Shown here one piece after another: positions 28,599-56,052 of a stretch of 64,000 bases of DNA. The position numbers were made by a program, and so were the translations under genes. The notes below the pieces were generated by a model, which was not told the origin of the DNA, ran no database searches, and worked only from the letters and a program-made list of their open reading frames with translations. The DNA is taken from positions 1-64,000 of the forward strand of contig JAUSAX010000089.1 in NCBI GenBank assembly GCA_030652315.1. Reading direction: 5' to 3'. Source of the stretch: Afipia sp. (GTDB taxonomy: Bacteria > Pseudomonadota > Alphaproteobacteria > Rhizobiales > Xanthobacteraceae). Within the stretch, counting starts at the first letter, position 1, and every line of letters starts with the position of its first letter.

Positions 28599-31364
28599 CT
28601 ACTCCGCCGCGGTGCGAAGCTCAGCGCGCTCCACCTTCACCGCGCAGAACTTAAACTCCGGAATTTTTCCATACGGGTCCAGCGCCGGGTTAGTCAGCAG
28701 GTTCGCGGCTGCCTCGGCGTAACAGAACGGCATGAACACCATGTTCTCGGGTACGTCGCGATCCGAACGGACCTTGACCTCGATGGCGCCGCGGCGCGTC
28801 TCCAGCCGAACGAAATCGCCCGGCCAGATATTGATCCTGCGCATGTCCTTCGGCGACATGAACGCCGTCGCCTCCGGCTCGATGCTGTCGAGCACTTCAG
28901 ACCGGCGCGTCATCGAACCCGTGTGCCAGTGTTCAAGCACGCGGCCAGTCGAAAGCACCATCGGGTATTCATCGTCGGGAATCTCGTCCGGCGCCGTGAC
29001 GCGTGCCGGCACGATCTTGCCGCGGCCGCTTTCGGTCGGGAACCCGGTGGTGAAAATGATCTCGTTACCGGGCTTGAACGGATCGTCGACCGGATAAGTC
29101 ACTGCACCTTCGCGCTCGAGCCGTTCCCACGTGATGTTTTTCAGCGACGGCATAAGCTGCGTCATCTCGGTGAACACATCGGCAGGACCGCTGTAATTCC
29201 AGTCGAGCCCCATTCGCTTTGCGATTTCCTGAATGATCCAAAGATCCTGACGGGCATCCCCGGGCGGCTTGATCACCTGACGCGCGATCTGCACGCGACG
29301 ATCGGTGTTGGTGAACGAGCCTTCCTTCTCGGCGAAAGCCGATGCCGGCAATATCACGTCGGCGTGGAACGCTGTCTCAGTTACAAACAAATCCTGCACC
29401 ACCAGATGCTCAAGCATGGCTAGCGCCTGACGGGCGTGCTGCAAATCAGGATCTGACATCGCTGGGTTTTCCCCCTCAATGTACATGCCGGTAATATCAC
29501 CTGCATGGATTGCATCCATGATCTCTACAACAGTCAATCCTCGGACCGGATCGATCTCCTGATGCCAGAGTTGCTCGAACGGCTGACGCAAGTCGACACG
29601 ACCCACAGGTTGATAATCCGGCAGAAACATCGGAATGAGACCCGCATCCGATGCGCCTTGCACGTTGTTCTGTCCGCGCAGCGGATGCAGACCCGTGCCG
29701 GGACGACCAATCTGTCCTGTGGTCAGCGCGAGTGCGATCAGGCATCGCGCGTTGTCAGTACCGTGGACGTGCTGGCTGATACCCATGCCCCAGAATATGA
29801 GCGATGACTTTGCCTTCGCATACATGCGAGCGACTTCGCGCAACGTCTCGGCGGGAACACCGCAGATCGGCTCCATCTTCTCTGGCGGGAATTCCTTGAT
29901 CTTCTCCTTGAGGTCGTCAAATCCCTCAGTGTAACCGGCGATATACTGCGCGTCGGTCAAGCCTTCGGTGATGATCGTGTGCAGCATCGCGTTCAACATC
30001 GCGACATCGCTGCCGGGCTTGAATTGCAGATGCATAGTGGCGTGACGCGACAAGGCTTGCCGGCGCGGATCCATCACGATCAGCTTCGCGCCCTTCTTCA
30101 CCGCGTTCTTGATGAAGGTCGCCGCGACAGGATGATTGACGGTCGGATTGGCGCCAATGACGATAATCACTTCCGCGTCCGCAGCGGCCGAGAACGGCGC
30201 CGACACAGCACCCGAGTTCAGGCCTTCCATCAGGGCTGCAACCGAGGACGCGTGGCACAACCGCGTACAATGATCGACGTTGTTCGAGCCGAAGCCGGTG
30301 CGGACCAATTTCTGGAACAGATAGGCTTCCTCGTTTGAACCTTTTGCCGACCCGAAACCTGCCAGCGCCTTGACGCCCTTGGTGTCGCGAATTTTTGTGA
30401 GGCCATTCGCAGCAATATCGAGGGCTTCTTCCCACGACGCTTCGCGGAAATGCGTGAACGGATTGGCCGGATCAACCTGATCGGTCGAACTCTTCTTAGC
30501 GTTCGGCAAGCGCACCAGCGGCTTGGTGATACGGTGAGGGTGGTGAATGTAGTCGAAGCCGAAGCGGCCCTTGACGCAAAGCCGGTTGTGGTTGGCCGGG
30601 CCGTCGCGGCCTTCAGCGTAAACGATCTTCTCTTCCTTGACCTGATACGTCACCTGACAACCGACGCCGCAGAACGGACAGAGCGAATCCACCTTCTTGT
30701 CGGGATAAACCGTGCGGGTCTGGTTGGCGTCGAGATACGCGGACGGCATCAGCGCGCCGGTGGGGCAAGCCTGCACGCATTCGCCGCATGCAACGCATGT
30801 GGACTCGCCCATCGGATCATCGAAGTCGAAGACGATTTTGGCGTCCGCATTGCGGTAGGCCATGCCGATGACATCGTTGACCTGAACTTCCCGGCATGCG
30901 CGTACGCAAAGCCCGCACTGGATGCAGGCATCGAGATTGACGCTCATCGCCGGATGGCTGCTGTCGCCTTGCCAGCGCTCGTTCGCCGGAAAGCGGCTTT
31001 CGGTGACTTCAACCTTGTCAGCCCAGTTCCAGAATTTCGAGTCGGGGTCGTGCGATGTCGCACGCGCAGGCTGATCGGCGACGAGCAACTCCATCACCAT
31101 CTTGCGGGCGGAGACAGCGCGCGTGCTCGCCGACTTCACCTTCATGCCGATCGACGGCGTACGCTTGCAGGACGCAGCCAGCACGCGCTCGCCTTCGATC
31201 TCGACCATGCAGGCGCGGCAGTTACCGTCAGCGCGGTAATCCGGCTCCGGCGAATAGCACAGATGCGGAATTTCGGTCCCTTCGCGCTTGGCGACCTGCC
31301 AGATCGACTCGCCCGCCTGGGCCTCGACCATTTTCCCGTCCAGTTCAAATTGGATCTTGGTCAT
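28599..31364 (-). CDS. fdsA: NAD-type formate dehydrogenase, molybdo/tungsto-pterin alpha subunit
   Basis: 921 residues from the ATG at 31364, which overlaps the FdsGB stop by 4 bp (ATGA). Order of domains: an N-terminal [2Fe-2S] ferredoxin (about 1-80; Cys in H-L-C-Y-S-P and N-C-R-A-C), a His-Cys cluster, two [4Fe-4S] sites (C-I-Q-C-G-L-C and C-V-A-C-G-E-C), the catalytic-core cluster (C-P-F-C-G-V-G-C) and a bis-MGD domain. The metal ligand is Cys, not selenocysteine (T-R-L-C-H-A-S, about residue 369). No Tat signal, so it is cytoplasmic. It oxidises formate to CO2 with electrons passing to the NAD-reducing partner, and such enzymes can also reduce CO2. Mo or W cannot be told from sequence. 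Confidence 0.93.
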   Translation of the reverse strand: MTKIQFELDGKMVEAQAGESIWQVAKREGTEIPHLCYSPEPDYRADGNCRACMVEIEGERVLAASCKRTPSIGMKVKSASTRAVSARKMVMELLVADQPARATSHDPDSKFWNWADKVEVTESRFPANERWQGDSSHPAMSVNLDACIQCGLCVRACREVQVNDVIGMAYRNADAKIVFDFDDPMGESTCVACGECVQACPTGALMPSAYLDANQTRTVYPDKKVDSLCPFCGVGCQVTYQVKEEKIVYAEGRDGPANHNRLCVKGRFGFDYIHHPHRITKPLVRLPNAKKSSTDQVDPANPFTHFREASWEEALDIAANGLTKIRDTKGVKALAGFGSAKGSNEEAYLFQKLVRTGFGSNNVDHCTRLCHASSVAALMEGLNSGAVSAPFSAAADAEVIIVIGANPTVNHPVAATFIKNAVKKGAKLIVMDPRRQALSRHATMHLQFKPGSDVAMLNAMLHTIITEGLTDAQYIAGYTEGFDDLKEKIKEFPPEKMEPICGVPAETLREVARMYAKAKSSLIFWGMGISQHVHGTDNARCLIALALTTGQIGRPGTGLHPLRGQNNVQGASDAGLIPMFLPDYQPVGRVDLRQPFEQLWHQEIDPVRGLTVVEIMDAIHAGDITGMYIEGENPAMSDPDLQHARQALAMLEHLVVQDLFVTETAFHADVILPASAFAEKEGSFTNTDRRVQIARQVIKPPGDARQDLWIIQEIAKRMGLDWNYSGPADVFTEMTQLMPSLKNITWERLEREGAVTYPVDDPFKPGNEIIFTTGFPTESGRGKIVPARVTAPDEIPDDEYPMVLSTGRVLEHWHTGSMTRRSEVLDSIEPEATAFMSPKDMRRINIWPGDFVRLETRRGAIEVKVRSDRDVPENMVFMPFCYAEAAANLLTNPALDPYGKIPEFKFCAVKVERAELRTAAE

Positions 31365-33070
31365 TCTGCGGCTTCCTTGGGCGCGAATTCCTCGGGAAAA
31401 TATTTGATGACGGTGGTCAGTGGGTTTGAAGCCGCCTGCCCCAAACCGCAAATAGATGCATCACGCATCGCCTGACTCAATTCATCGAGCAGATCGCGGT
31501 TCCAGACGCGCTGTTCCATCAGCGTCGCCGCCTTCTGCGTTCCGACGCGGCATGGCGTACACTGGCCGCAACTCTCATCCTCGAAGAAGCGCATCAGGTT
31601 CAGCGCTGCATCCTTGACCTGATCCTTGTCGGACAGGATGACGACAGCGGCGGAGCCGATAAAGCAGCCGTACTTTTCCAGCGTGCCGAAATCGAGCGGG
31701 ATGTTGTCCATCGACGCCGGCAGGATGCCACCCGAGGCGCCGCCCGGAAGGTAAGCGTGAAACGTGTGGCCCTCGGCCATGCCGCCGCAGAACTCATCGA
31801 TCAGTTCACGCACCGTTACGCCTGCTGGCGCGAGCTTCATGCCGGGGCTTTTCACACGCCCGGAGACCGAATAGCTGCGCAGGCCCTGACGTTCATTGCG
31901 GCCCTGCGATTTCCACCAGTCGCCGCCCTTCTCAACGATGTCGCGCACCCACCACAACGTCTCGATGTTATTGATCAGTGTTGGCAGACCAAACAAACCG
32001 ACCTGGAACGGATATGGCGGCTTGTGGCGAGGCAACCCGCGCTTGCCTTCGATGCTTTCAAGTAATGCGGATTCCTCTCCGCAAATGTACGCGCCCGCAC
32101 CTCGGCGCAGATGCAGCTTTGGACCGCCGGGCGGCAGCTTCTTGATTTCGCGTTCGATGATTTCGCGCGACGCCGGGTATTCGTCACGCAGGTAAATGTA
32201 GACATCGGGAGCTTCGACAACATGCGCGCCGATCAGCATGCCTTCGATAAAGCGATGCGGGTCGGTTTCGAGATAGTAGCGATCCTTGAAAGTCCCCGGT
32301 TCGCCTTCGTCACCATTGATCGCCATCAGGCGCGGCCCCGGCTCGCCAAGCACGGCGCGCCATTTGCGGCCTGTCGGGAAACCTGCGCCGCCAAGACCAC
32401 GCAGCGAAGCGTCATCAAGCGCCTTCAGCAAGTCTTCTTTCGTCATCGCACCGGAGCGCAACTTCGTCAGCAGTCCATAGCCTCCCTTGGAGACGTAGGA
32501 ATCGTAATCGATGTACTTCGGCAGATGTGCGTGGGTGTCTCCGCTTTTCGCCGCGGCCAGAACGCTCTCAACGCTCGCATGATCGACGAAATTATGTCCC
32601 ACCTCAGCAGCCGGCGCCGTGTCGCAGCGCCCGACGCAGGGCGCGCGCACCACGCGCACGCCGGGCCCGGCGCTCTTCTTCAGTTCACTCAGCAGCGTCT
32701 CCGCGCCGAGCATCGCGCAGGTGAGAGAATCGCAAACCCGGATGGTCAGTGGAGGAAGGTCCGGCTCGCCTTCTTTGACCACGTCGAAATGCGCGTAGAA
32801 GGTCGCGGTTTCAAACACCTCCGCGAAGGCCAGCTTCATCGAGTCGGCAAGCGCTGCCAGATGAGCCGCCGAAATCTGATTGTACCTGTCCTGGATCAGG
32901 TGGAGGTGCTCGATCAGCAGGTCACGCTGCCGGGAGCGGTCGCCGAGCAAAATCTCAATTTCTTCAGCAGCTTGCGGGTCAATCTGCCGGCCTTTTGGCG
33001 TCGATTTGGCGCGCCGGCGGCCCTCGCCGGGATGTTCGAATGGCTGAACTGTCTGGACGCTATGGCTCAT
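31361..33070 (-). CDS. fdsB: Fused FdsG-FdsB diaphorase subunit of NAD-dependent formate dehydrogenase
   Basis: 569 residues from the ATG at 33070 (GGAAGAG upstream). The N-terminal ~160 residues are NuoE/FdsG-like with [2Fe-2S] ligands (C-D-S-L-T-C and C-V-G-R-C-D). The remainder is NuoF/FdsB-like: NADH site G-L-G-G-A-G-F-P-T-G-R-K-W, FMN region G-D-E-G-E-P-G-T-F-K-D-R, and the C-terminal [4Fe-4S] ligands E-S-C-G-Q-C-T-P-C-R. In several bacteria these are two genes, fdsG and fdsB; here they form one chain. It passes electrons from FdsA to NAD. The small FdsD subunit and FdsC are not adjacent; an FdhD (FdsC type) is encoded at 48.6 kb. Confidence 0.92.
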   Translation of the reverse strand: MSHSVQTVQPFEHPGEGRRRAKSTPKGRQIDPQAAEEIEILLGDRSRQRDLLIEHLHLIQDRYNQISAAHLAALADSMKLAFAEVFETATFYAHFDVVKEGEPDLPPLTIRVCDSLTCAMLGAETLLSELKKSAGPGVRVVRAPCVGRCDTAPAAEVGHNFVDHASVESVLAAAKSGDTHAHLPKYIDYDSYVSKGGYGLLTKLRSGAMTKEDLLKALDDASLRGLGGAGFPTGRKWRAVLGEPGPRLMAINGDEGEPGTFKDRYYLETDPHRFIEGMLIGAHVVEAPDVYIYLRDEYPASREIIEREIKKLPPGGPKLHLRRGAGAYICGEESALLESIEGKRGLPRHKPPYPFQVGLFGLPTLINNIETLWWVRDIVEKGGDWWKSQGRNERQGLRSYSVSGRVKSPGMKLAPAGVTVRELIDEFCGGMAEGHTFHAYLPGGASGGILPASMDNIPLDFGTLEKYGCFIGSAAVVILSDKDQVKDAALNLMRFFEDESCGQCTPCRVGTQKAATLMEQRVWNRDLLDELSQAMRDASICGLGQAASNPLTTVIKYFPEEFAPKEAAE

Positions 33071-33248
33071 TCGAATGTCTCTTCCCAAGGTCTTCGAACC
33101 CCGGACGATAGTATCTGGCATTCAATATGCCAAGAATTATTCCAAGGTTACGCAATGACGCCGATTGCTAACTCTTTGCGCAATATGAAATGGAATTCCG
33201 GAGCTGCCGCTGGCCGACGCCACGGCTACGGACACGTGCAGCAAGCCG

Positions 33249-34223: not shown

Positions 34224-35477
34224 CTAGACCAGACTTGAATAGTCCAGAAACCCGACCGTCTGGCCGGGCTCCACCGTTGTGACCTCTTCACCGAGTTCGA
34301 CTAATCCGTCGGTATCCACCAGCGACGAGAGAAGGCCCGCACCCTCGCGCGGAAATTTAATCGCCTCCAGCGCCCCCTCGCCTTTGCGTAAACTGACCCT
34401 CACGTACTCGCGGCGGCCGATCTTCTTTTTGTAGCTAAAGGCAGCGCGCACCGGCATCGGTACGGGCCTTTTCTGTGCTGTCCCAGCCAGCGCCAAAACG
34501 GTTGGGCGGACGACGTAGGTGAAAGTCACAAAGCTTGCCACGGGATTTCCCGGCAGCCCTATAAATGGCGTGCCGCCAATGATGCCCATTGCCACCGGAC
34601 GGCCCGGCTTGATCGCCATGCGCCAGAGCACCAGCGTCCCAACGCTCTCGACCGCGGCCTTGACGTGATCCTCTTCGCCGGTGGAAACGCCACCGGAAGT
34701 GAGGATGAGATCATGACTGCCAGCAGCTTCTTTTAACGCTGAAGCAAGGGAGGCCCGATCGTCGCGCAAAATGCCGAGATCGCTGACCTCGCAACCAAGC
34801 CGCTTCAGCATTGCCCTCATCATGAAGCGGTTCGAGTCGAAGAGTTGCGCAGCACCGCGCTGCGCACCGGGCGACACCACCTCATTGCCGGTCGAGAACA
34901 CGGCAATGCGCAGCCGACGCTTAACCTCAATGCGCGTCAGCCCGAATGCCGCGATCAGCGCGATGTCCTGCGGCCGCAATTGCCGCCCGGCGAGCAGCGC
35001 CGAATGACCTTCCGGAATATCCTCTCCGGCGGGACGCACATTGGCGCCGACTTTGAGACCCGGCGGCAGCACGACTTTGCCAGCCTGGTCGATCCGTACG
35101 TCCTCCTGCATGAACACAGTATCGGCGCCAGCGGGCATCGGTGCGCCGGTAAAAATGCGGACCGCCTCACCGGGGGCGATAGCAGTCGACGCTGATGCCC
35201 CCGCCTGAATACGCCCGGCGATCGGAAATGCCTGCTCGGTGTCGCGCGGCAAATCCGCGCCGCGCACCGCATACCCATCGACCGCTGAATTGGTGAATGG
35301 CGGCAACGCCAGCGGCGCTTTGATGTCGGCACCAAGGATGCGGCCATCGGCCTCGGCCAGATCGACCCATTCCGTATCCGTCACAGCATCGATGCGACTG
35401 GCAATAGTCGAGACAGCCTCATCGACCGACATCATGGGGCCGCCGAATGCGAAGCAGTCATCCGAGAGTTGTGCCAT
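34224..35477 (-). CDS. moeA: Molybdopterin molybdenumtransferase MoeA
   Basis: 417 residues, full length for MoeA. Motifs: N-S-A-V-D-G-Y-A-V-R, A-V-F-S-T-G-N-E-V-V-S-P-G, T-S-G-G-V-S-T-G-E-E-D-H-V, P-G-R-P-V-A-M-G and G-L-P-G-N-P-V-A-S. It inserts molybdate (or tungstate) into adenylylated molybdopterin. The start shares a base with the mobB stop (TGATG). This is the most canonical of three MoeA-like proteins in the window. Confidence 0.95.
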   Translation of the reverse strand: MAQLSDDCFAFGGPMMSVDEAVSTIASRIDAVTDTEWVDLAEADGRILGADIKAPLALPPFTNSAVDGYAVRGADLPRDTEQAFPIAGRIQAGASASTAIAPGEAVRIFTGAPMPAGADTVFMQEDVRIDQAGKVVLPPGLKVGANVRPAGEDIPEGHSALLAGRQLRPQDIALIAAFGLTRIEVKRRLRIAVFSTGNEVVSPGAQRGAAQLFDSNRFMMRAMLKRLGCEVSDLGILRDDRASLASALKEAAGSHDLILTSGGVSTGEEDHVKAAVESVGTLVLWRMAIKPGRPVAMGIIGGTPFIGLPGNPVASFVTFTYVVRPTVLALAGTAQKRPVPMPVRAAFSYKKKIGRREYVRVSLRKGEGALEAIKFPREGAGLLSSLVDTDGLVELGEEVTTVEPGQTVGFLDYSSLV

Positions 35478-36004
35478 CAGGCTCCCGCAGCCTCATGCGC
35501 AAACACATCCTCGATCCGCACCGCCGCCGCCTTCATGATGCGGGCGATGGCGGGAATGTCATCGAGATGAGCAGCAGGCAGCGTCGTGTTCACGACGATG
35601 TCGGCAGCGATACCGACAATGGTCGGGTCTGCAGGAAACATCAGCGGCTTGCCATTCGCGGTGCGATGCACCTCGATCTTGGGGTGCGGGTCCGCCTTGA
35701 AGCCCTCAACGATCAGCAAATCCACGCGAGACATCTTTGCCAGCAGTTCGGCCAAGGGAGCCTCCGGCGCGCCGCGCAATTCGTGCATCAATGCCCAGCG
35801 ACGCCCGGAAGAGACCAGCACTTCGGTAGCGCCCGCCTGCCGATGCAGCCACGAGTCCTTGCCCGGAACATCGACGTCAAAATTGCTATGGGCGTGCTTC
35901 ATTGTCGAGACGCGCAAGCCCTCGGCGATCAGATACGGGATAAGGCGCGAAAGCAGCGTCGTCTTGCCTGCCCCGCTCCACCCCGAAAGACCTATCACCC
36001 TCAT
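35477..36004 (-). CDS. mobB: Molybdopterin-guanine dinucleotide biosynthesis adaptor MobB
   Basis: 175 residues. P-loop G-W-S-G-A-G-K-T-T-L near the N-terminus, then M-K-H-A-H-S-N-F-D-V-D and D-L-L-I-V-E-G-F-K. It binds GTP and assists MobA in forming MGD. It lies between the fdhC cytochrome gene (84-bp gap) and moeA on the same strand, so the membrane formate dehydrogenase operon probably carries its own cofactor genes. Confidence 0.93.
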   Translation of the reverse strand: MRVIGLSGWSGAGKTTLLSRLIPYLIAEGLRVSTMKHAHSNFDVDVPGKDSWLHRQAGATEVLVSSGRRWALMHELRGAPEAPLAELLAKMSRVDLLIVEGFKADPHPKIEVHRTANGKPLMFPADPTIVGIAADIVVNTTLPAAHLDDIPAIARIMKAAAVRIEDVFAHEAAGA

Positions 36005-36087: not shown

Positions 36088-37098
36088 TTATTCGGCGGGC
36101 ATGGCCCGCGGACTGCCGGTGTCGGGCGCCCGGCCCTTGGCCTGCTCCTCCTCAACCCAGAGCGAGTGGTGCTCCTTGGCCCAATTGAGGTCCACCTCGC
36201 CGGTCCCCATCGCATCGAACGCGCCCTCCATACCGACAGAGCCGATATAAATGTGGGCGAGCATGGCAGCGATAAACAGCATGGCGATCACGGCATGGAT
36301 CACAGTCCAGAACTGCAGTGTCGTGACGTTGGCTGGAATATAGGGAAACAGCAGGTACCAGCCCGACACGGACATCAGCGCGCCGCCGATGATGACGATC
36401 CAGAAGATGCCCTTCTGGCCGGCATTGAAGCGCCTGGCCGGCGGGTGCTCGCCATTCTTCAGCATGCCTCCGCCCTTCTTGAGCCAATTGAGATCGACCT
36501 TTCCGGGAATGTTATCCTTGATCCAGATCAGGAACATGATCACGAGACCGAGCATGAACGGGAACGCAAGGTAGTTGTGCGCGATCTTGCCCCACGCCGT
36601 CATCGTGGAGAATGCCTCAGGCCCGAACAGCGGCAGGATCAGCATGCGGCCAAAGCTGATGTTAAGGCCCGATAGCGCGAGAATGATGAAACAACTCGCG
36701 GTCAGCCAATGCGTGAATCGTTCGAAGCTGGCGAAACGGAGAATCTTGATACCGGAAAAGCCATGTTCGACGCGAATACGGCCGCGCACCGCCAGAAAGA
36801 TCGCGAGAAGAGCCAGCATCCCGATGATGGCAACGCCGCCGATGATCGGCAGCTTGTTGCGCTGAAAGTCTCGCCAGTCGCGCCCGGCCGGTTGGATCAG
36901 ACTCGATGCCATAGGATCCGGAATGGTGATCCGGCCCGTGATCTTGTCGCCCTCCTTCAGAGCCTTGAGAAGCTGGTCTTCATGCACAGCATCGGCGGTG
37001 GGCTTGAAGGATAATTGCGCGGTGGCTGGATGCGCGAGCACGAACAGCAACGCGAAGGCGGCACACAGGGTCTTGAGGGTTGAGAGCGAGATCGACAT
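36088..37098 (-). CDS. Formate dehydrogenase gamma subunit (cytochrome b membrane anchor)
   Basis: 336 residues from the ATG at 37098 (GGAAGG upstream). A signal-like helix (to about P-A-T-A-Q, residue 28) and a ~65-residue periplasmic part precede an FdnI/FdoI-type four-helix cytochrome b. Heme-ligand histidines are likely in F-E-R-F-T-H-W, W-G-K-I-A-H-N-Y and I-H-A-V-I-A-M-L-F-I-A-A-M-L-A-H-I. It passes electrons from the Fe-S subunit to quinone. The extended N-terminus is longer than E. coli FdnI (about 217 residues). Confidence 0.92.
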   Translation of the reverse strand: MSISLSTLKTLCAAFALLFVLAHPATAQLSFKPTADAVHEDQLLKALKEGDKITGRITIPDPMASSLIQPAGRDWRDFQRNKLPIIGGVAIIGMLALLAIFLAVRGRIRVEHGFSGIKILRFASFERFTHWLTASCFIILALSGLNISFGRMLILPLFGPEAFSTMTAWGKIAHNYLAFPFMLGLVIMFLIWIKDNIPGKVDLNWLKKGGGMLKNGEHPPARRFNAGQKGIFWIVIIGGALMSVSGWYLLFPYIPANVTTLQFWTVIHAVIAMLFIAAMLAHIYIGSVGMEGAFDAMGTGEVDLNWAKEHHSLWVEEEQAKGRAPDTGSPRAMPAE

Positions 37099-37182
37099 CG
37101 GAACGACCTTCCAGTTTCCAATCAAGAGCAACCTCGAACACGGATGTTGTCCGAAGGCCACTTTGGCCTTCGGCAGCGCGTC

Positions 37183-37779
37183 CTAGCCTGTCGGTGAATC
37201 GCTGTAGGCTGTCTTCCAGCCCCACATGCCCGAACCGTAGCCGCGCTTCATCACGCGTTCCTTGTAGATCTCCGCAATGATGGCGCCATCGCCGGCGAGC
37301 AACGATTTGGTCGAACACATCTCGGCGCAGATGGGCAGCTTGCCTTGAGCAAGTCGGTTGGCACCGTATTTGGCGTATTCGGCCGGCGAGTTGTCAGCTT
37401 CCGGACCGCCCGCGCAATAGGTGCACTTGTCCATCTTGCCGCGCGAACCGAAGTTTCCGACCTTCGGATACTGCGGCGCGCCGAACGGACATGCGTAGAA
37501 GCAGTATCCGCAACCGATGCACAGGTCTTTCGAGTGAAGGACGACGCCGTCCGCCGTGGTGTAGAAGCACGACACCGGGCAGACCGCCGCGCAAGGCGCG
37601 TCGGTGCAATGCATGCAGGCCATGGACACCGAGCGCTCACCGGGCTTGCCGTCATTGATGGTGACGACGCGGCGGCGATTGATGCCCCACGGGACTTCAT
37701 GTTCGTTCTTACAGGCAGTCACGCAGGCGTTGCACTCAATGCAACGGTCAGCATCACAAAGAAATTTGACGCGAGCCAT
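37183..37779 (-). CDS. Formate dehydrogenase beta subunit (four [4Fe-4S] ferredoxin)
   Basis: 198 residues with four cysteine groups: C-I-E-C-N-A-C-V-T-A-C, C-M-H-C-T-D-A-P-C-A-A-V-C-P, C-I-G-C-G-Y-C-F-Y-A-C-P and C-T-Y-C with C-A-E-M-C. It links the catalytic subunit to the cytochrome b. Unlike E. coli FdnH it has no C-terminal membrane helix. It sits between the catalytic and gamma subunit genes. Confidence 0.94.
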   Translation of the reverse strand: MARVKFLCDADRCIECNACVTACKNEHEVPWGINRRRVVTINDGKPGERSVSMACMHCTDAPCAAVCPVSCFYTTADGVVLHSKDLCIGCGYCFYACPFGAPQYPKVGNFGSRGKMDKCTYCAGGPEADNSPAEYAKYGANRLAQGKLPICAEMCSTKSLLAGDGAIIAEIYKERVMKRGYGSGMWGWKTAYSDSPTG

Positions 37780-37793
37780 CGTTTATTCTCCCC

Positions 37794-40760
37794 TCACGCC
37801 GATTGAATTTGGCACAGGGTCGCTTTGCCCTCGTGCATGCCGGTGACCGGGTCGTAGCCATAACTGGTGATCGTATTGACGCTTTCGCCGAGCACGATCG
37901 GGTCCGCGCCCTTCGGATATTTGGAGCGCTGATCGACGCCCTGGAACCAGCCGGAAAAGTGGAAGGGCATGAAGGCCACGCCCTTGCCGACGCGATCGGT
38001 GACCAGCGCCTTGACGCGTGCCTTCGATCCGTTTTCCGGGCCGAACACCCAGACCCATCCGCCGTCTTTGATGCCGCGCTCGGCGGCGTCCGCCGTGTTT
38101 ACCTCGACGAACATGTCCTGCTGCAATTCGGCAAGCCAGCGGTTCGACCGCGTTTCTTCGCCGCCGCCTTCGTATTCCACCAGGCGCCCGGAGGTGAGGA
38201 TGATCGGGAATTGCTTGGCAATCCCCTTGTCCACCGCGGCCTTCTGAATCGAGAAGCCGAGATTGGCCATGCGGAACTGTCGTCCATCCGGACGTGTCGG
38301 ATACTTGGCGACCAGTTCAGGACGTGGCGTGTAAATCGGCTCGCGATGCACAGGTACCGGATCAGGCAAGTTCCACGCCACCGCGCGGGCCTTGCCGTTG
38401 CCATAGGCCATCACGCCGTGCTCGAGCGTGACTCGGATGATGCCGCCGGACAGATCGACCGCCCAGCCCACACCGTCCGGGTTGTTGCCGCCTATCTTGT
38501 TGATGGTGGCGAGTTCAGCCTCGGTGAGATCCTTGTCCCAGCCAAGCTTCTTCAACACGCCGTAGGTAAACTCGGGATAACCATCGGTCAGTTCTGAGCC
38601 CTTGGTGTAAGAACCCTCGGCCAGAAGATTGACGTTCTTCACCGAGCCATCCGGCTGTTTCTCTTCGTACACGACGCCGAAGCGCGCGCGGAACGTGCCG
38701 CCGCCATCCTTGGCATGAAGATTGGTGTTGTACAGCGTGTGCGTGCCTGGATGCTTGATCTGAGGCGTGCCCCAGCAGGGCCACGGCAATCCGTAATAAT
38801 CGCCGCCGATTTCAGGTTCGTCCGCCTTGGCGCGCAAGGTCACCAGGTCGAACTTGCCCTGGTTCTTCATGTGCGCTTTCAGCCGCTCAGGCGACTGACC
38901 GGAATATCCGGTCGAGAAACCGCCACGATTGATTTCGCGCAAGAGGTCTTCGGGGACAGGACGATTGTTCTCCACCTTGATGTTCTTGAACATCGGATCG
39001 GCGAATCCGAGCTTCTTCGAAAGCCGGTAGATGATTTCGTAGTCATCCTTGGATTCGAAGATCGGCTTGACGATCTGCTCACCCCACTGCAGCGAACGAT
39101 TGGACGCGGTGCGCGAACCCGAGGTCTCAAACTGGGTACAGGCCGGCAGCAGATATGTGCCGTTCTTCCGATCCGAGATCGCGGCGAACGTTGTCGGATG
39201 CGGATCCGCGACCACGAGCAATTCGAGCGCTTCAAGGCCTTTCACCATTTCGGTCATACGCGGGATGGTGTTGCCACCATGCCCCATGATGAACACGCCC
39301 TTCACGACGTCGCGCTGATCAACGTCATCTGGCTTGGCAAGTGTCGCGTCGAACCAGCGGGTCCATGGGATGCCCGGCAATTCCATGTTCTGTTTGCGAG
39401 TACGGGCCGGACGCCCGGCCTTTGCCGGGACTTCGTCGAACCGCGCCTGCAGGTAGTCGTACTCGACTTCCCATACACGCGCCCAGTGCTTCCAGGCGCC
39501 TTCAACCAGACCGTAGTAAAGCGGCAGCGAGGTGATATCGAGGCCGATGTCGGTCGCGCCCTGCACGTTGCAGTGCCCGCGGAAGATGTTGGCCCCTCCT
39601 CCGAAGACGCCGACGTTGCCGGTCGCGAGCAGAAGGTTGCAATAGGCGCGAACGTTCGCGGTGCCGACAGTGTGCTGCGTGCCGCCCATGCACCAGATGA
39701 AGGTTGAAGGACGCTGCTTGGCGAAGGTCTCGGCGACCTTCTTCACCTGCTCGCCGGGAATGCCCGTTACGCGTTCAACTTCTTCCGGAGTCCACTTCGC
39801 AACCTCAGCGCGGATCTGGTCCATGCCGTAAACGCGCTGGGCGATGTATTGCTTGTCTTCCCAGCCGTTGGCGAAGATGTGGTGCAGCATGCCCCATATC
39901 ACCGCGATGTCGGTGCCCGAGCGGAATCGCACGTACTCGGTTGCATGCGCCGCGGTGCGCGTGAAGCGCGGATCGAGCACGAACACGTTGGCGCGGTTGA
40001 TTTCCTTGCCCGTCAGGATGTGCTGCAGCGAAACCGGATGCGCCTCGGCGGCATTCGATCCCATGAACACGATGGTCTTCGAGTTTCGGATGTCGTTGTA
40101 GGAGTTCGTCATCGCACCGTAGCCCCAGGTGTTGGCAACACCCGCGACCGTGGTCGAATGACAAATGCGCGCCTGGTGGTCGATCGAGTTGGTGCCCCAG
40201 AACGCGGCGAACTTGCGGAACAGATAGCCGCCTTCATTGGAGAACTTCGCCGAACCCAGCAGATAAACCGAGTCGGCGCCGGACTTGGCGCGAATCTCGA
40301 GCATCTTGTCGCCGATTTCATTGATGGCCTGATCCCAGCCGATCTTCTGCCACTCGCCGTTGACCAGCTTCATCGGATACTTCAGGCGGCGGTCGCCATG
40401 CACGATTTCGCGAACCGACGCGCCCTTGGCGCAATGCGAGCCACGGTTGAGCGGGCTGTCCCAAGCTGGTTCCTGACCGACCCAGACACCGTTCTGCACT
40501 TCGGCGATGACCGTGCAGCCCACCGAACAATGCGTGCAGACGTTCTTTTTGATTTCCGTCGGTGCGCCGACGATTTTTGGCCCGGCCTGCGCCTTGCGCA
40601 CCGATCCCAGCGGCATCAATCCAATGGCAGCGCCCGCCCCCGCAACGAGGCCTGAGCGGCGCAGGAAGGTTCGGCGATCGAGAACACCGGAAGCGAGACC
40701 CGCGGCGATGCCCTGCAAGCGCGCGCGACCGGCAGATCCTTCTTTTCGCTTGATCAACAT
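37794..40760 (-). CDS. Tat-exported formate dehydrogenase catalytic subunit (FdnG/FdoG-type, Cys active site)
   Basis: 988 residues in one unbroken frame. A twin-arginine signal D-R-R-T-F-L-R-R-S-G at about residues 28-37 precedes a hydrophobic stretch. The [4Fe-4S] site is C-T-H-C-S-V-G-C. The metal ligand is Cys at about residue 198 (H-Q-A-R-I-C-H-S), where E. coli FdnG has selenocysteine. The bis-MGD domain runs to the C-terminus. It oxidises formate in the periplasm, with electrons going to the beta and gamma subunits. It is 13 bp after a small Tat-signal protein gene and depends on the nearby chaperone. Mo versus W is undetermined. Confidence 0.95.
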   Translation of the reverse strand: MLIKRKEGSAGRARLQGIAAGLASGVLDRRTFLRRSGLVAGAGAAIGLMPLGSVRKAQAGPKIVGAPTEIKKNVCTHCSVGCTVIAEVQNGVWVGQEPAWDSPLNRGSHCAKGASVREIVHGDRRLKYPMKLVNGEWQKIGWDQAINEIGDKMLEIRAKSGADSVYLLGSAKFSNEGGYLFRKFAAFWGTNSIDHQARICHSTTVAGVANTWGYGAMTNSYNDIRNSKTIVFMGSNAAEAHPVSLQHILTGKEINRANVFVLDPRFTRTAAHATEYVRFRSGTDIAVIWGMLHHIFANGWEDKQYIAQRVYGMDQIRAEVAKWTPEEVERVTGIPGEQVKKVAETFAKQRPSTFIWCMGGTQHTVGTANVRAYCNLLLATGNVGVFGGGANIFRGHCNVQGATDIGLDITSLPLYYGLVEGAWKHWARVWEVEYDYLQARFDEVPAKAGRPARTRKQNMELPGIPWTRWFDATLAKPDDVDQRDVVKGVFIMGHGGNTIPRMTEMVKGLEALELLVVADPHPTTFAAISDRKNGTYLLPACTQFETSGSRTASNRSLQWGEQIVKPIFESKDDYEIIYRLSKKLGFADPMFKNIKVENNRPVPEDLLREINRGGFSTGYSGQSPERLKAHMKNQGKFDLVTLRAKADEPEIGGDYYGLPWPCWGTPQIKHPGTHTLYNTNLHAKDGGGTFRARFGVVYEEKQPDGSVKNVNLLAEGSYTKGSELTDGYPEFTYGVLKKLGWDKDLTEAELATINKIGGNNPDGVGWAVDLSGGIIRVTLEHGVMAYGNGKARAVAWNLPDPVPVHREPIYTPRPELVAKYPTRPDGRQFRMANLGFSIQKAAVDKGIAKQFPIILTSGRLVEYEGGGEETRSNRWLAELQQDMFVEVNTADAAERGIKDGGWVWVFGPENGSKARVKALVTDRVGKGVAFMPFHFSGWFQGVDQRSKYPKGADPIVLGESVNTITSYGYDPVTGMHEGKATLCQIQSA

Positions 40761-40773
40761 GTGCGTGCTTCCA

Positions 40774-41001
40774 TCAATAACGGTTGACGCGATAGTAGTT
40801 TTTGACGTCCGGCGAATCCGCCTTGTAGCGAGCCTTGACCCGCTCGGCCTGAGACTCGTCTGCCTCCGCCTCCGTGGCTATCGGCACAATCGCGGCCGCG
40901 GCGACAGCCGATCCGCCCATCATGAAGAAACTGCGACGATCGAATCTCTTGGCATCTTGCGGCTTGTCTAGGGATGCCTTGCTCTTGGACTGCTTAATCA
41001 T
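40774..41001 (-). CDS. Formate dehydrogenase region Tat-signal small protein
   Basis: 75 residues from the ATG at 41001. A Tat signal F-D-R-R-S-F-F-M-M-G-G followed by a hydrophobic Ala/Val stretch, then a short tail of about 30 residues (A-R-Y-K-A-D-S-P-D-V-K-N-Y-Y). Small proteins like this recur just upstream of Tat-exported formate dehydrogenases (formate dehydrogenase region TAT target). It may be a small subunit or export partner; the role is unproven. Confidence 0.85.
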   Translation of the reverse strand: MIKQSKSKASLDKPQDAKRFDRRSFFMMGGSAVAAAAIVPIATEAEADESQAERVKARYKADSPDVKNYYRVNRY

Positions 41002-41042
41002 CGCGGTCTCCTCCAAGTCAATTTTCCAGTCCGGCCATCACG

Positions 41043-41831
41043 TCACTCGGACAGCGTGAAAGCCTCTGATTCCAGTTCTATAAAGATGCGACCAACGCGC
41101 CCGACAGCACGATAGAATTTGACGGATTGTGAAATTTCGAGATCGGCAAACATCCGCGCGGCCCATGGCTTGAGATGCCGCTCGAAAAACCGCGCTTGCG
41201 CTGCGAAGTCCGTTTCGAAGTCGTCGCGCGCGAAACCGGCCATGACCTCGAGCAGTATCGCAATGTGATCTTCCGGCTCTCGCGCCGAACCGGCGCGCTC
41301 GATCCCCAGCATGTCAAAATCTTCGCGGACGCGCGCGAGCGGCCGCTCGTGAAGGAAGCCCGTCAGATAATACGAGGCATAGGGCAGCAGTTCGCCGCGT
41401 CCCAAGCCAATGAACAGATCGAAGAACTCCTTGGAGATCGCGCGCTCATCGAATTCCGTCGCTGCTGCGGCGAGTTCGATATGCGCCATGCCAAGGTCAG
41501 ACGCATCGCCTTTCAGCATCGCAACTTTGGACAACGTGTCCGCAGTGGGCGCCTTGCCCATCAGCAACGACAACAGGCCGTACTCCGCGGCGCGGAGCTG
41601 ATCGATTTCATCGATGTCTGATTTCACTGAAATGTTATCCCCGGCTGATCCGTAGAGGTCGGGGCGGAGAAGTGAACGGGAGACTTGTGTCAGGGACTCA
41701 ACGGCGAGAACGCGCTCGGCCGGAATACGCGACCACGCCGAAACCGACGGCTGAGCAATTCCAATAGCTCTCGCCAGGGAGGCGACGCCGCCTGCTGCCT
41801 TGATTGCCCGCTCTAATCCTGAGTCCCGCAT
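41043..41831 (-). CDS. Helix-turn-helix (YdaS/Cro-like) - TorD-family chaperone fusion
   Basis: 262 residues from the ATG at 41831; a GTG at 41855 with GAGGG upstream would add eight. The N-terminal ~55 residues read as a Cro/YdaS-type DNA-binding domain (G-G-V-A-S-L-A-R-A-I-G-I-A-Q-P-S-V-S-A-W). The helical remainder resembles TorD/DmsD-type redox enzyme maturation chaperones (Y-A-S-Y-Y-L-T-G-F-L-H-E-R-P-L-A-R-V and E-P-E-D-H-I-A-I-L-L-E-V-M). It would hold the Tat formate dehydrogenase until cofactor insertion. The fused HTH and the perfect inverted repeat 54 bp upstream suggest it also controls transcription, possibly its own. It is first in the order chaperone, small Tat protein, fdh alpha, beta, gamma, mobB, moeA. 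Confidence 0.85.
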   Translation of the reverse strand: MRDSGLERAIKAAGGVASLARAIGIAQPSVSAWSRIPAERVLAVESLTQVSRSLLRPDLYGSAGDNISVKSDIDEIDQLRAAEYGLLSLLMGKAPTADTLSKVAMLKGDASDLGMAHIELAAAATEFDERAISKEFFDLFIGLGRGELLPYASYYLTGFLHERPLARVREDFDMLGIERAGSAREPEDHIAILLEVMAGFARDDFETDFAAQARFFERHLKPWAARMFADLEISQSVKFYRAVGRVGRIFIELESEAFTLSE

Positions 41832-41884
41832 GGTCCGAACCGAAGCCCTCCCCACCGTGCCCTCAAATCAGGCATCTTCCTTTA

Positions 41885-41907
41885 TTTGGAACTATTCTAG
41901 TTCCAAA
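41885..41907. promoter_or_regulatory. Perfect 10-bp inverted repeat, probable operator of the chaperone/formate dehydrogenase operon
   Basis: TTTGGAACTA (41885-41894) and TAGTTCCAAA (41898-41907) flank a TTC spacer. It is the most symmetrical short site in this part of the window and lies 54 bp before the HTH-TorD start. This fits a dimeric Cro-like repressor. The string TATTTGGAAC also occurs at 34029-34038, upstream of the TusA/fds operon. Confidence 0.7.
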
Positions 41908-41914
41908 TTTGTAT

Positions 41915-41931
41915 CATAGGTTCGTCCTATG
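41915..41931. repeat. Second short inverted repeat near the operator
   Basis: CATAGG (41915-41920) and CCTATG (41926-41931) around a 5-nt spacer. It lies between the first inverted repeat and the DUF3306 stop. Could be a secondary site or the loop of an RNA hairpin; no more can be said. Confidence 0.45.
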
Positions 41932-41947
41932 TCTCAAAGAATTTTGT

Positions 41948-42658
41948 CTAAACCCTTGGTTTTGCAGTGCCATGGCGTCGCACGCCTTGCTGCAGTGCAC
42001 TGGACTCGTTGAACACAGCATCCTCTGCGCGTTCACTCTGAGCGTACTCAGCGTGAGCTTCATCATCCGATACGGGATTTGAAGCTGTCGCCGGTGCAGA
42101 CAACCTTACTTGCTGAAGCGGCAATATCGGCTCCGGATTTTGCGGCGCGTCAACGTCCGCATCGGCGCTGGCACCATCGCTTGCATCACCATGTGACCTG
42201 TCGCCCGGCTCTTGCAGACCGGAGGTGACCGGATCGCTGCCCATGATCTGCAGAACCATTTTCGCGATGTCTGTGCCCGGCGCGAGTTCGCTGCTTCCGG
42301 GCACGCCGCCGGGCGTATTCCAGTCATAAGCGTAGTCGAGTGCGGGATTGACGTAGTTGCGGACCGCCGAATCCAGCGCCCAGGATTTCCGTAGCGCTGC
42401 ATTGCGCAAACTCTCGGGCACCCCCTTGCGCAAGAAGCCAGTGATATCGGTGGTTTCCGTGATCTCTTCCAGTTTCGGCAGGCTTGAAAGATCGAACTGC
42501 TCTTCGGCGTCGCTTTCGACACCGGGCGTGGGCAAAGCCTCCGCCTCGTCAGCCGGGTCTACAACCGCGCTGTCATTCTCCGGCAGTTTCGCCTCGCGCT
42601 TGCGTTGCGACCAGCGCGACAGAAAATTCTTGTCGCTCTCCTTCTCGTCCTGGCTCAT
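41948..42658 (-). CDS. DUF3306 domain protein
   Basis: 236 residues, acidic, with a short conserved block (F-L-R-K-G-V-P-E-S-L-R-N-A-A-L-R-K-S-W, then V-R-N-Y-V-N-P-A-L-D-Y-A-Y-D-W-N-T-P-G) between disordered-looking ends rich in Glu, Asp and Ala. The opening M-x7-K-N-F-L-S-R-W-S-Q-R-K is typical of DUF3306. The protein is soluble, with no cysteine or metal motif seen. It overlaps DUF3305 by 4 bp. The family is found with formate dehydrogenase genes; biochemical role unknown. Confidence 0.85.
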   Translation of the reverse strand: MSQDEKESDKNFLSRWSQRKREAKLPENDSAVVDPADEAEALPTPGVESDAEEQFDLSSLPKLEEITETTDITGFLRKGVPESLRNAALRKSWALDSAVRNYVNPALDYAYDWNTPGGVPGSSELAPGTDIAKMVLQIMGSDPVTSGLQEPGDRSHGDASDGASADADVDAPQNPEPILPLQQVRLSAPATASNPVSDDEAHAEYAQSERAEDAVFNESSALQQGVRRHGTAKPRV

Positions 42659-50175: not shown

Positions 50176-52125
50176 TTATGCCGGGCGGAATCCCGCCAGC
50201 TCCAGCGCCGCGCGCGTTTCTGGTGACGTCAGCGAACCCAGAAAAGCTTGCACGGCGGGACGCTGCTTTCGCGCGGTCACGAGCGCAAAATCGTAGTGCT
50301 CTTCGGCGAACGGAATAAATCCAAGTCCGGCCGCACGCGCGACCGGTGCGATGGTCATGCCCCAGTCAGCGCGATTCTGCGCAACCGCTGCCGCGACAGC
50401 ATTGTGCGAGCGCGGCTGATTCCAGTAACCGTCTGGCCGCGCTTCTCCCAGCAGACGATCAATCAGGATGCGTGTGCCTGCCCCCTGATTGCGGTTGACC
50501 ATCAAACAGGAAGGGTCCTTAAGCGCAGCGCGCACCGCGTCTTCGGCGTTGAGACCTTCAAAGCGTTTGTCCCCGGCGCGGAATACGATGCCCTGCATCC
50601 GCCGATAGCCCGGCACGAGTTCAAGGCCATCGGCAAGAAAAGGAACGTTGTATGTGTCTGTCTTCTCATCGAGCAGATGGATCGGTGCAAGATCGCATTC
50701 GCCGCGCCGTGCCGCGGACAATCCGCCAAGACTTCCTACCGAAATCGAACGCACCGACAGACCAGCGCGCGCCAATGGTCCAGTGACGAGATCGAGGCCA
50801 GTGCAATGACTCCCCACAATGACGAGATCCGGGACGCGCACATGCGGCGTGAACAGCGTCACCTCCGATTGAGTTCCTGCCGGCATCTGCTCGGCGAGCG
50901 CATCGATCTTCAGAAACCCGTCAGCCTGAGCAAACGACGTAATTGCGCCGGATCCCTTGCCGGTCGGATACGCAACCAATCCGTCATCGCCCTCGACCAG
51001 CGATACCATCACGAATTCCGTACGGCCGAGTTCCGAGGCAATCCGCACCGGCACCTTCGCCATCACGCGCGCATCGTTACGCGGCGGCAAACCGGCGAGA
51101 CGGCGCAATACGGGCACGATCATGTCGTGAAACGTGAACATCGCCGACGTGGGAAAGCCCGGCAGAATGACAACAGGCTTGCCATCGCATACCGCGAGGC
51201 ACAGCGGCTTGCCGGGCTTCAGTGCGACGCCGTGCGCGATGATACCTGGTTTACCTAGCCGCACAACGATACGGTGAGAGACATCGCCCTCGCCTTTCGA
51301 GGTGCCGCCGGAAAGAATGAGCATGTCGCTGGTCGCAAGCGCTTCGCGCATGACAGCTTCGAGCTTGTCCTCTTGGTCCGGAAACGCTCCGAGAAATACC
51401 GCCTCGCCCCCATTTTCGGATACCGCAGCCGCGACGATTGCGCCGTTGGTGTCGTAGATCGCAGCCGGACGCAGCGGCAAACCGGGTTGAACAAGTTCGT
51501 CGCCGGTGGAAATGATCGCAACGCGAGGTTTCCTCACCACGGAGACGCGTGCGACACCGGATGCAGCGAGCATGCCAATTTCGCGCGAGCCGATCAGCGT
51601 CCCTGCCCTTAACAAGATTTCGCCACGCGCGATGTCAGACCCTGCATATGACACGAACTGCCCCGGCGACGTCGCGCGCATGATCTCGATCGCACCCGCG
51701 CCCGCTGGCTGCGTGTGCTCGACCATCACGACGGCGTCGGCACCGCGCGGAATGGGACCACCCGTCGCAATCGGCGTCGCCGTACCTTTTACCACGGGCA
51801 ATTGCGGTGCGGTTCCGCATGCGATGACCTCGCTGTTCAGGCGAAGACAAACCGGGAACGCCTCACCCGCGGCAACGAGATCGGCGGAACGCACAGCAAA
51901 GCCATCGACGTTGGAGCGATCGAATGGCGGGACATCGACAACGGCAAATACATCGCTTGCCAGCGCGCCCCCAAGCGCTTCGGCCAACGCGCGGTTGTCT
52001 GCGGCCAGATCACGCGGAAACAGCGCGGCTTCAAAGCGGGCAAGCGCATCCTCGCGCGACAGGATCGTCAGAAACTGTTCCTGGTCGAGGCCTGCGGTGT
52101 TCAGCGACGCGTTCGGCTTGATCAT
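50176..52125 (-). CDS. MoeA fused to a PBP-like substrate-binding domain
   Basis: 649 residues. The first ~410 are a full MoeA with motifs N-V-D-G-F-A-V-R, I-S-T-G-D-E-L-V-Q-P-G, S-G-G-T-S-K-G-E-G-D-V, P-G-K-P-L-C-L-A-V and L-P-G-F-P-T-S-A-M. The C-terminal ~230 residues are a periplasmic-binding-protein-like domain used inside the cell (V-G-S-H-C-T-G-L-D-L, A-R-R-G-E-C-D-L-A-P-I-H-L-L, N-R-N-Q-G-A-G-T-R). The same kind of domain occurs in the regulator at 56.1 kb. It probably binds an oxyanion or cofactor ligand and may make metal insertion selective. Its pair partner is the MoeA-like gene directly upstream. Confidence 0.88.
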   Translation of the reverse strand: MIKPNASLNTAGLDQEQFLTILSREDALARFEAALFPRDLAADNRALAEALGGALASDVFAVVDVPPFDRSNVDGFAVRSADLVAAGEAFPVCLRLNSEVIACGTAPQLPVVKGTATPIATGGPIPRGADAVVMVEHTQPAGAGAIEIMRATSPGQFVSYAGSDIARGEILLRAGTLIGSREIGMLAASGVARVSVVRKPRVAIISTGDELVQPGLPLRPAAIYDTNGAIVAAAVSENGGEAVFLGAFPDQEDKLEAVMREALATSDMLILSGGTSKGEGDVSHRIVVRLGKPGIIAHGVALKPGKPLCLAVCDGKPVVILPGFPTSAMFTFHDMIVPVLRRLAGLPPRNDARVMAKVPVRIASELGRTEFVMVSLVEGDDGLVAYPTGKGSGAITSFAQADGFLKIDALAEQMPAGTQSEVTLFTPHVRVPDLVIVGSHCTGLDLVTGPLARAGLSVRSISVGSLGGLSAARRGECDLAPIHLLDEKTDTYNVPFLADGLELVPGYRRMQGIVFRAGDKRFEGLNAEDAVRAALKDPSCLMVNRNQGAGTRILIDRLLGEARPDGYWNQPRSHNAVAAAVAQNRADWGMTIAPVARAAGLGFIPFAEEHYDFALVTARKQRPAVQAFLGSLTSPETRAALELAGFRPA

Positions 52126-53688: not shown

Positions 53689-54525
53689 TCAGGATGCCTT
53701 TTTCTCGGCGTTGGGGAAGAAAAGCTGCTTGCCGTTGACCTGATAGGCCGCAATGGCGCTCTGCCCGTCAGGTGAGATCAACCAGTCGATAAAGCTTTGG
53801 CCGAGGTCTTTCTTCACCGCCGGATGCTTCTCCGGGTTCACCAGAATGACGCCATATTGGTTAAACAGCCGCTTGTCGCCCTCGACCGCGATGACGAGAT
53901 CACCGGGGTTCTTGAAAGAAAGCCAGGTGCCCCGGTCGGAAACCACGTAGGCATTCATCGCACCGGCTGTGTTAAGCGCGGCACCCATGCCCTGCCCGAT
54001 TTCGCGATACCACGGACCCTTGGTGGTCTCGAGATCGACACCGGCCTGTTTCCACAGCGCAAGTTCAGCCGAATGCGTACCTGATTTATCGCCTCGGGAG
54101 ACGAACGGCACAGCTTTTCCCTGAATAGCCTTTAGTGCGGCGATAATGTCCTTCGATCCACCGACGCCCGCCGGATCGCTTTTCGGGCCGATCAGGACGA
54201 AGTCATTATACATGACATCGAAGCGCTTCACGCCGTGCCCTTCGGCGACGAATTTTTCTTCCTGCGACTTTGCGTGCACGAAGACGACATCGGCATCGCC
54301 GCGCCGCGCTGTATCCAGCGCCTGTCCAGTGCCTTGCGCGATGACCTTCACCTCGATTCCGGTTTTGGCCTTGAACAAGGGCAAGATGTAACCGAACAGG
54401 CCGGAATCCTGCGTCGATGTGGTCGAAGCCACGACAATGGATTTGTCCTGCGCGGAGCTAGGTGTTGCGAACGCCACCGCGAGCAACGAGAGCGCAAAGG
54501 AAAGAGAAGCGTATAGGCGTTTCAT
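53689..54525 (-). CDS. tupA: Tungstate ABC transporter substrate-binding protein TupA
   Basis: 278 residues. Signal peptide to about A-T-P-S-S-A-Q, then A-S-T-T-S-T-Q-D-S-G-L near the mature N-terminus, the S/T-rich loop of the TupA/WtpA-like group. R-G-D-K-S-G-T-H further on is the second anion-binding loop. The TupA family binds tungstate with high preference over molybdate; the actual preference here is untested. It is last in the tupB-tupC-tupA order. Confidence 0.9.
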   Translation of the reverse strand: MKRLYASLSFALSLLAVAFATPSSAQDKSIVVASTTSTQDSGLFGYILPLFKAKTGIEVKVIAQGTGQALDTARRGDADVVFVHAKSQEEKFVAEGHGVKRFDVMYNDFVLIGPKSDPAGVGGSKDIIAALKAIQGKAVPFVSRGDKSGTHSAELALWKQAGVDLETTKGPWYREIGQGMGAALNTAGAMNAYVVSDRGTWLSFKNPGDLVIAVEGDKRLFNQYGVILVNPEKHPAVKKDLGQSFIDWLISPDGQSAIAAYQVNGKQLFFPNAEKKAS

Positions 54526-55986: not shown

Positions 55987-56052
55987 TCCTGCATATTTTT
56001 CAGCCATGTCAATGAATTGAAAAAAAACATGAATATGCATATAAATGCAGGA
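55987..56052. promoter_or_regulatory. Inverted repeats in the tupB / regulator divergent promoter
   Basis: TCCTGCAT at 55987-55994 is mirrored by ATGCAGGA at 56045-56052, with 50 bp between. Inside lies the 10-bp palindrome ATATGCATAT (56033-56042). The right arm ends on the first base of the regulator ATG. The spacing could allow two dimers or a DNA loop. Probable operator for the divergent HTH regulator. Confidence 0.65.

Follow-up and report, generated by a model that had tools for sequence, protein, structure and literature searches.

A predicted formate dehydrogenase chaperone with a very probable second role in regulating the genes of its own enzyme

Results

The window analyzed here, that is, the whole 64,000-nucleotide (nt) stretch from contig JAUSAX010000089.1 of Afipia sp., carries on its minus strand a gene (41043..41831) for a 262-residue protein, hereafter HTH-TorD, in which a helix-turn-helix (HTH) domain of the Cro/YdaS type is fused to a chaperone domain of the TorD/DmsD/NarJ type, and upstream of which lie two palindromes, dyad A and dyad B. 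The single open frame is matched in Pfam by YdaS_toxin (PF15943, 7.7e-16, 58.1 bits for a cutoff of 30), P22_Cro (PF14549, 3.1e-7, 30.5 bits for a cutoff of 30.2), and Nitrate_red_del/TorD (PF02613, 1.2e-29), which bears out the proposal, made by a first-pass annotation of the letters alone, of a TorD-like chaperone with a Cro/YdaS-type HTH at its N-terminus. The HTH domain covers residues 3–61 (41649..41825, minus strand) and includes the recognition helix region QPSVSAW (residues 27–33, 41733..41753, minus strand; helix 27–31 in the structural model), and the chaperone domain covers residues 74–261 (41049..41612, minus strand). In the predicted structure (predicted local distance difference test, pLDDT, of 84.6), the N-terminus adopts the Cro fold, an outcome that favors the same annotation, which had named structure prediction as a check, and the TorD part is all-helical; the structures of TorD/DmsD/NarJ chaperones (PF02613) that match the protein align over residues 71–262 only, and none of them spans the HTH. 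PF15943 is matched nowhere else in this genome.

Because 41 of 42 proteins (our own and 41 relatives, L037 being left untrimmed as its open frame extends far upstream) begin with M[RK][DE], translation most likely starts at the ATG at 41831 rather than at the GTG at 41855 of the mechanically called open reading frame (ORF). The nearest of these relatives is a protein of Afipia massiliensis (95% identity); in Bradyrhizobium sp. 184 and in plasmid records, such a protein is annotated only as "molecular chaperone TorD family protein."

Both palindromes lie in the intergenic stretch between HTH-TorD and the DUF3306 gene upstream of it. Dyad B (41884..41908), whose conserved core is centered around GAATAGTTC, is the inverted repeat that the first-pass annotation had reported as having 10-base-pair (bp) arms, a 3-bp spacer, and a position 54 bp upstream: the repeat is perfect and the spacer correct, but the arms are of 11 bp (41884–41894 and 41898–41908) and end 52 nt from the ATG. 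No second match to it, at up to 3 mismatches, occurs within the window. Inverted repeats of at least 10 bp number 21 there, dyad B included, which makes it by itself just mildly unusual. Dyad A (ATAG-N7-CTAT, 41916..41930; CATAGG-N5-CCTATG, 41915–41931, in its extended form), which was absent from that annotation, lies 7 nt farther from the gene. Across 41 aligned promoters (our own and 40 relatives, L040 excluded), the ATAG and CTAT half-sites of dyad A are 95–100% conserved around a free center. In the dyad B region, a shifted core, TRGAATARTTCYA, is nearly invariant and the left outer arm is weakly kept, the commonest base reaching 34–63% at its G-G-A-A-C positions, so that the conservation before orthologs, a check named for this repeat, does not extend to its perfect form. 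In several clades, dyad A is also preceded at a short distance by an RGACNAAAG-like block (41940–41952 in the window; L131, L135, and L181, where L denotes loci and G genomes), which is likewise seen before two genes in which the HTH is fused to MobB (L102 and L103).

To follow dyad A across relatives, we assembled a set of 173 distinct HTH fusions, 163 to TorD and 10 to MobB. Loci with fewer than 100 nt of sequence before the gene (such as L247) were left out, as were sequences identical to another over the HTH and 120 nt and those whose HTH match was weaker than 1e-10; this last filter excluded L084, which shows no dyad A in 300 nt. The HTH match is strong (E below 1e-20) in 160 of the 163 HTH-TorD genes, the others being L079 and L081, with a divergent YdaS, and L133, with a decayed HTH; three fusions obtained late (L300, L303, and L324) lie outside this set. 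A perfect ATAG-N7-CTAT occurs within 200 nt upstream of 153 of the 160 strong-HTH genes, 63–144 nt before the start (median 99 nt), versus 26 other matches among 6,997 tiles of 200 nt, some of them from loci fetched by a form of the pattern. The seven genes without a perfect copy are L022, L250, L039, L197, L207, L239, and L254. By contrast, none of 46 TorD genes lacking the HTH (31, plus 15 from new genomes, six of the 21 rows of the latter set repeating earlier genomes) has dyad A within 400 nt upstream, and in two genomes with two TorD copies, the HTH-TorD copy has the site and the HTH-less copy does not (L055/L123 and L127/L117). The site also looks local, since our genome (92% complete) holds two strict matches, compared with 7 for the reversed control pattern. 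In L133 (2847–3629), a TorD gene whose HTH has no Pfam match at 0.01 and is still matched by the family hidden Markov model, only the right half-site of dyad A is retained; HTH and site seem to have decayed together. All fusions seen belong to the class of the window's genome: in the one search that reached beyond this class (398 genomes of the phylum, E to 1e-20), the matches outside the class begin at profile position 33 or later and none covers the HTH. A TorD gene of Sinorhizobium meliloti (L325, 1959–2717), for its part, has no HTH match and starts 23 nt after DUF3306, which leaves no space for an operator.

If the HTH reads dyad A, changes in the two should go together. We examined 159 fusions with a site (the 153 perfect ones, three with Ala29, L022, and two MobB fusions), thinned to 86 by HTH identity when ranking the 60 HTH positions compared. 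Residue 29 ranks first of the 60 for base 4 of the half-site (z 19.3, the next position reaching 7.0), and residue 32 ranks first for base 5 (z 14.7, next 5.9), which, unlike base 4, lies outside the motif chosen; both residues are in or at the recognition helix. Over all 159 fusions, Asn32 goes with C at base 5 in 119 of 164 half-sites, and Ala32 or Gly32 with G in 86 of 102. In independent pairs drawn from the TorD tree, the residue-32 contrast of Ala, Gly, Ser, or Thr with Asn gives 9 pairs in the expected direction, none against, and 4 ties (4, none, and 1 tie when restricted to Ala or Gly versus Asn), and the replacement of Ser29 by Ala behaves as expected in three pairs out of three. Indeed, Ala29 goes with a shift from ATAG to ATAA in both half-sites of L039 and L197. 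This rule had been stated beforehand when L303, whose helix reads QPAISSW, was fetched and found to carry ATAAGGTCTCATTAT; perfect ATAG/CTAT sites are found for the remaining new HTH-TorD proteins, L300 (QPT) and L324 (QPP). Altogether, an ATAA half-site accompanies all four Ala29 proteins, L303 included, as against one of the 158 others whose best match departs by no more than 2 mismatches (Fisher 1.8e-7, ignoring relatedness), and ATAA-N7-TTAT occurs in 9 of 7,808 tiles.

With regard to the promoter itself, a candidate −10 hexamer, TATGAT (41913..41918, minus strand), overlaps the right half of dyad A; it is weak, because a scan of 41780–42050 finds no sigma-70 consensus pair. Among the 153 promoters with a perfect dyad A, TTGAC follows the operator within 35 nt in 75 and is lacking in 78. 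CTATNNT, which places TATNNT, a possible −10, over the right half-site, is kept in 59 of the 78 promoters without TTGAC versus 7 of the 75 with it. In the 63 promoters that combine TTGAC with TANNNT, the operator end falls at offset −1 (40) or 7–10 (23), positions about one helical turn apart, and never at 0–6; three cases of TTGAC without a fitting TANNNT stand at 15, 19, and 22.

The same HTH is also found fused to MobB (L102, 6288–7136; L103, 6017–6835; L104–L110; and L273); five of these proteins were scanned, and their MobB part matches PF03205 at 2.2e-52 to 1e-48. L102 and L103 have a perfect dyad A. In an HTH tree that is weak for being built on 64 residues, this pair groups with Afipia/Bradyrhizobium-like HTH-TorD proteins in a clade of 49 members (support 0.87) that contains no other MobB fusion, so that HTH-MobB likely arose in at least two fusion events. 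In genome G059, the paralogues differ accordingly in both partners: HTH-TorD has Ala29 and ATAA/TTAT, and HTH-MobB has Ser29 and ATAG/CTAT. Six of the seven genomes behind L104–L110 (all but G142) show no TorD match among the up to 8 candidates scored per genome; L104 and L109 adjoin what read as molybdenum-cofactor genes. A search for further HTH partners in 297 genomes of the order gave 26 matches at E of 7.8e-30 or less, all of them TorD fusions, followed by an 81-residue free-standing HTH in G939 (6.1e-24) and by weaker matches (6e-19 and above), L198 and L200 being among those that lie in longer frames. A different YdaS HTH (QANVWHW) occurs on formate dehydrogenase TorD proteins in family f94 (L081, L084, and L284–L293). 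No dyad A is found at its members L081 and L084; ACAAA-N4-TTTGT is seen near the start in 8 of 10 f94 promoters, by eye on the alignment, and GCRACT-GAG-AGTCGC was set aside as the f94 dyad, being perfect in just 2 of 10. The fusion in this family may have arisen independently and have an operator of its own.

In the window, the gene order is DUF6505, DUF6352, DUF3305, DUF3306, HTH-TorD, a small gene with a twin-arginine translocation (Tat) signal, and formate dehydrogenase alpha, an order identical in the annotated genome of Bradyrhizobium sp. 184. The genes described next, from DUF3306 to the MobB gene without HTH, lie on the minus strand. The DUF3306 gene immediately upstream of HTH-TorD (41948..42658) matches PF11748 (4e-18). 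Downstream, the small Tat-signal protein of formate dehydrogenase regions (FdhX-like, 40774..41016) matches TIGR02811 at 0.00024 and 21.4 bits, under the cutoff of 48.45, and corresponds in position to the Tat-signal gene of L324. It is followed by ORFs for the formate dehydrogenase alpha subunit (37794..40760), named from the gene order as in Bradyrhizobium sp. 184 and not scanned, an iron-sulfur subunit (37183..37779), named by reading its cysteine motifs and not scanned, and a cytochrome b subunit (36088..37161), likewise named by reading and not scanned, and then by a MobB gene without HTH (35477..36004, PF03205 1.7e-48). More generally, 162 of the 163 HTH-TorD loci have FdhX- and/or FdhA-like sequence downstream, which places the fusion beside a molybdoenzyme. 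The same cluster includes a second formate dehydrogenase-like set (28599–33121), with a molybdopterin subunit and a fused NuoE/NuoF-like subunit. Elsewhere in the window, a protein with HTH_17 and PBP_like domains (56052–56942), perhaps a molybdate/tungstate-type regulator, is encoded near MoeA-PBP (50176–52125) and a solute-binding protein gene (53689–54525).

Discussion

Since the HTH and the palindrome in its own promoter have changed in step, HTH-TorD very probably controls the genes of its enzyme: a helper that would load the metal cofactor into formate dehydrogenase would also regulate the enzyme under assembly. The idea of the first-pass annotation that the HTH recognizes a palindrome in its own promoter thus gains strong comparative evidence, although for dyad A, which is very probably the operator. 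Taken as a whole, the best explanation is probably that of a bifunctional maturation factor autoregulating its own operon. Judging from family and gene order, the TorD domain would handle the catalytic subunit, in its apo form, of the membrane formate dehydrogenase whose genes follow immediately downstream. The Cro-type HTH, as a dimer, would bind dyad A in the promoter of the operon, each half-site being read at base 4 by residue 29 and at base 5 by residue 32, a step that the coevolution of helix and site strongly supports and that we hold to be highly probable. Binding at dyad A would repress the operon; repression, presumably steric, is favored because the operator overlaps a −10-like hexamer in this genus and in several other groups, and we regard an autorepressor, with moderate confidence, as the likelier form of control. 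Finally, immature enzyme held in the TorD domain might weaken DNA binding, so that transcription would track enzyme maturation, a speculation prompted by the fusion itself to which we give a roughly even chance.

Several observations weigh against this reading. Two genes with a strong HTH (L239 and L254) have no dyad A, and two others (L022 and L250) have it with one mismatch; L022, besides, combines Ser29 with one ATAA half-site and thereby breaks the base-4 rule, and L207, with Ala29, shows ATAA in just one of its half-sites (a close relative of it, L227, combines Ser29 with ATAG and identical spacer bases). The base-4 ranking is partly conditioned, the rows having been picked for having a site, with L239, L250, and L254 left out, and the protein's own family supplies just 11 of the 46 TorD-only controls (L115–L125). 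The site of the held-out L300 falls short of the usual range, at just 44 nt from the HTH. Dyad A is absent within 200 nt of the other eight of the ten HTH-MobB genes, three of which (L108–L110) keep just the right half before TTGACC. Lastly, the phased offsets of TTGAC and TANNNT would suit an activator too, through contact with RNA polymerase.

The last point leads to the rival that differs from ours only in sign, namely that HTH-TorD binds dyad A as an activator next to the −35 element, a position like that of the lambda cI activator, the enzyme then being made only while free chaperone is in excess. Its homeostatic logic is simpler and it would make sense of operator ends about one helical turn apart with none in between, yet it is hard to fit to the 59 of 78 TTGAC-less promoters in which the operator covers TATNNT, and we find it rather unlikely. 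A more serious contender, whose chances we put only a little below even, is simple autoregulation, in which the HTH only sets the level of the operon and the TorD part has no switching role: all the evidence bears on the HTH and the DNA and none on TorD occupancy, and the HTH occurs on MobB as well. Against this stands the repeated fusion to late molybdenum-cofactor factors (TorD and MobB), which suggests that the partner domain matters, albeit as an argument only.

Other readings concern who binds where. Dyad B as the operator of the HTH, or as a second one, is improbable. Its core GAANNNTTC does occur downstream of dyad A in 71 of the 153 promoters (control CTTNNNAAG, 5 of 153), and above all in the Afipia/Bradyrhizobium-like group (HTH E below 1e-36), where 45 of 46 promoters have it, as against 26 of 107 elsewhere. 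However, the core is not found in the remaining 82 of the 153, the perfect form is not conserved, and in L039 the core stays GAATAATTC whereas dyad A changes together with the recognition helix, for which reasons we abandon the operator role that the first-pass annotation had given to this repeat. Dyad B might conceivably form a hairpin in RNA instead. Dyad A could also belong to another regulator, for instance of the LysR type, given that ATAG-N7-CTAT fits the LysR box, T-N11-A, and that formate dehydrogenase promoters of one clade could share such a box, the association with the HTH being then a phylogenetic coincidence. The covariation speaks against this box, in that it peaks at two recognition-helix residues of the 60 HTH positions and holds in independent pairs and in the held-out L303; no LysR domain was found either among the 28 window genes scanned with Pfam, the remaining window genes not being scanned. 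We therefore consider a foreign owner of dyad A very improbable, and we give a slightly lower chance still to the HTH being a mere structural relic that no longer binds DNA. The enzyme HppE may offer such a case in its HTH-like domain, but the recognition-helix residues here are conserved or change along with the DNA site.

Regarding known systems, phage Cro (P22/Xfaso 1 type) and YdaS (PF14549 and PF15943) belong to the same HTH family as HTH-TorD, from which our case differs in that the HTH sits on a chaperone, in a metabolic operon, and without the YdaT partner beside it, the two adjoining genes being DUF3306 and the Tat-signal gene. BirA, PutA, and NadR combine in one polypeptide a metabolic or assembly function and DNA binding at their own operon; HTH-TorD likewise joins a second function to predicted DNA binding, but its second function would be that of a chaperone for a product of the same operon. 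In type III secretion and flagellar systems, the chaperones SicA (with InvF) and FlgN let client occupancy inform gene expression via a separate factor, whereas in HTH-TorD, DNA binding would reside in the chaperone itself. Among the matches listed from the open-licence literature, we found no description of the HTH-TorD fusion or of its proposed regulatory role, which does not show its absence from print; a term search of PMC10609526 gives no occurrence of DNA-binding, helix-turn-helix, or MobB.

More broadly, and tentatively, the Cro HTH may have moved repeatedly onto late molybdenum-cofactor factors (TorD and MobB), giving self-reporting maturation factors that would open or close the enzyme promoter according to client or cofactor state, with a two-residue code preventing cross-talk between paralogues. 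Cells must match the production of a metalloenzyme to their capacity for finishing it, and a chaperone that reads the maturation state and acts on the promoter would, if this is true, form a very short control loop. HTH-TorD is a concrete candidate for such a loop: its operator and base contacts are predicted, and swaps occur in nature (Ser29 to Ala with ATAA, and the HTH on MobB). Our observations suggest that transcription factors exist among the proteins whose sole annotation is that of a TorD chaperone, and the HTH-TorD family offers a natural data set for the recognition code of Cro.
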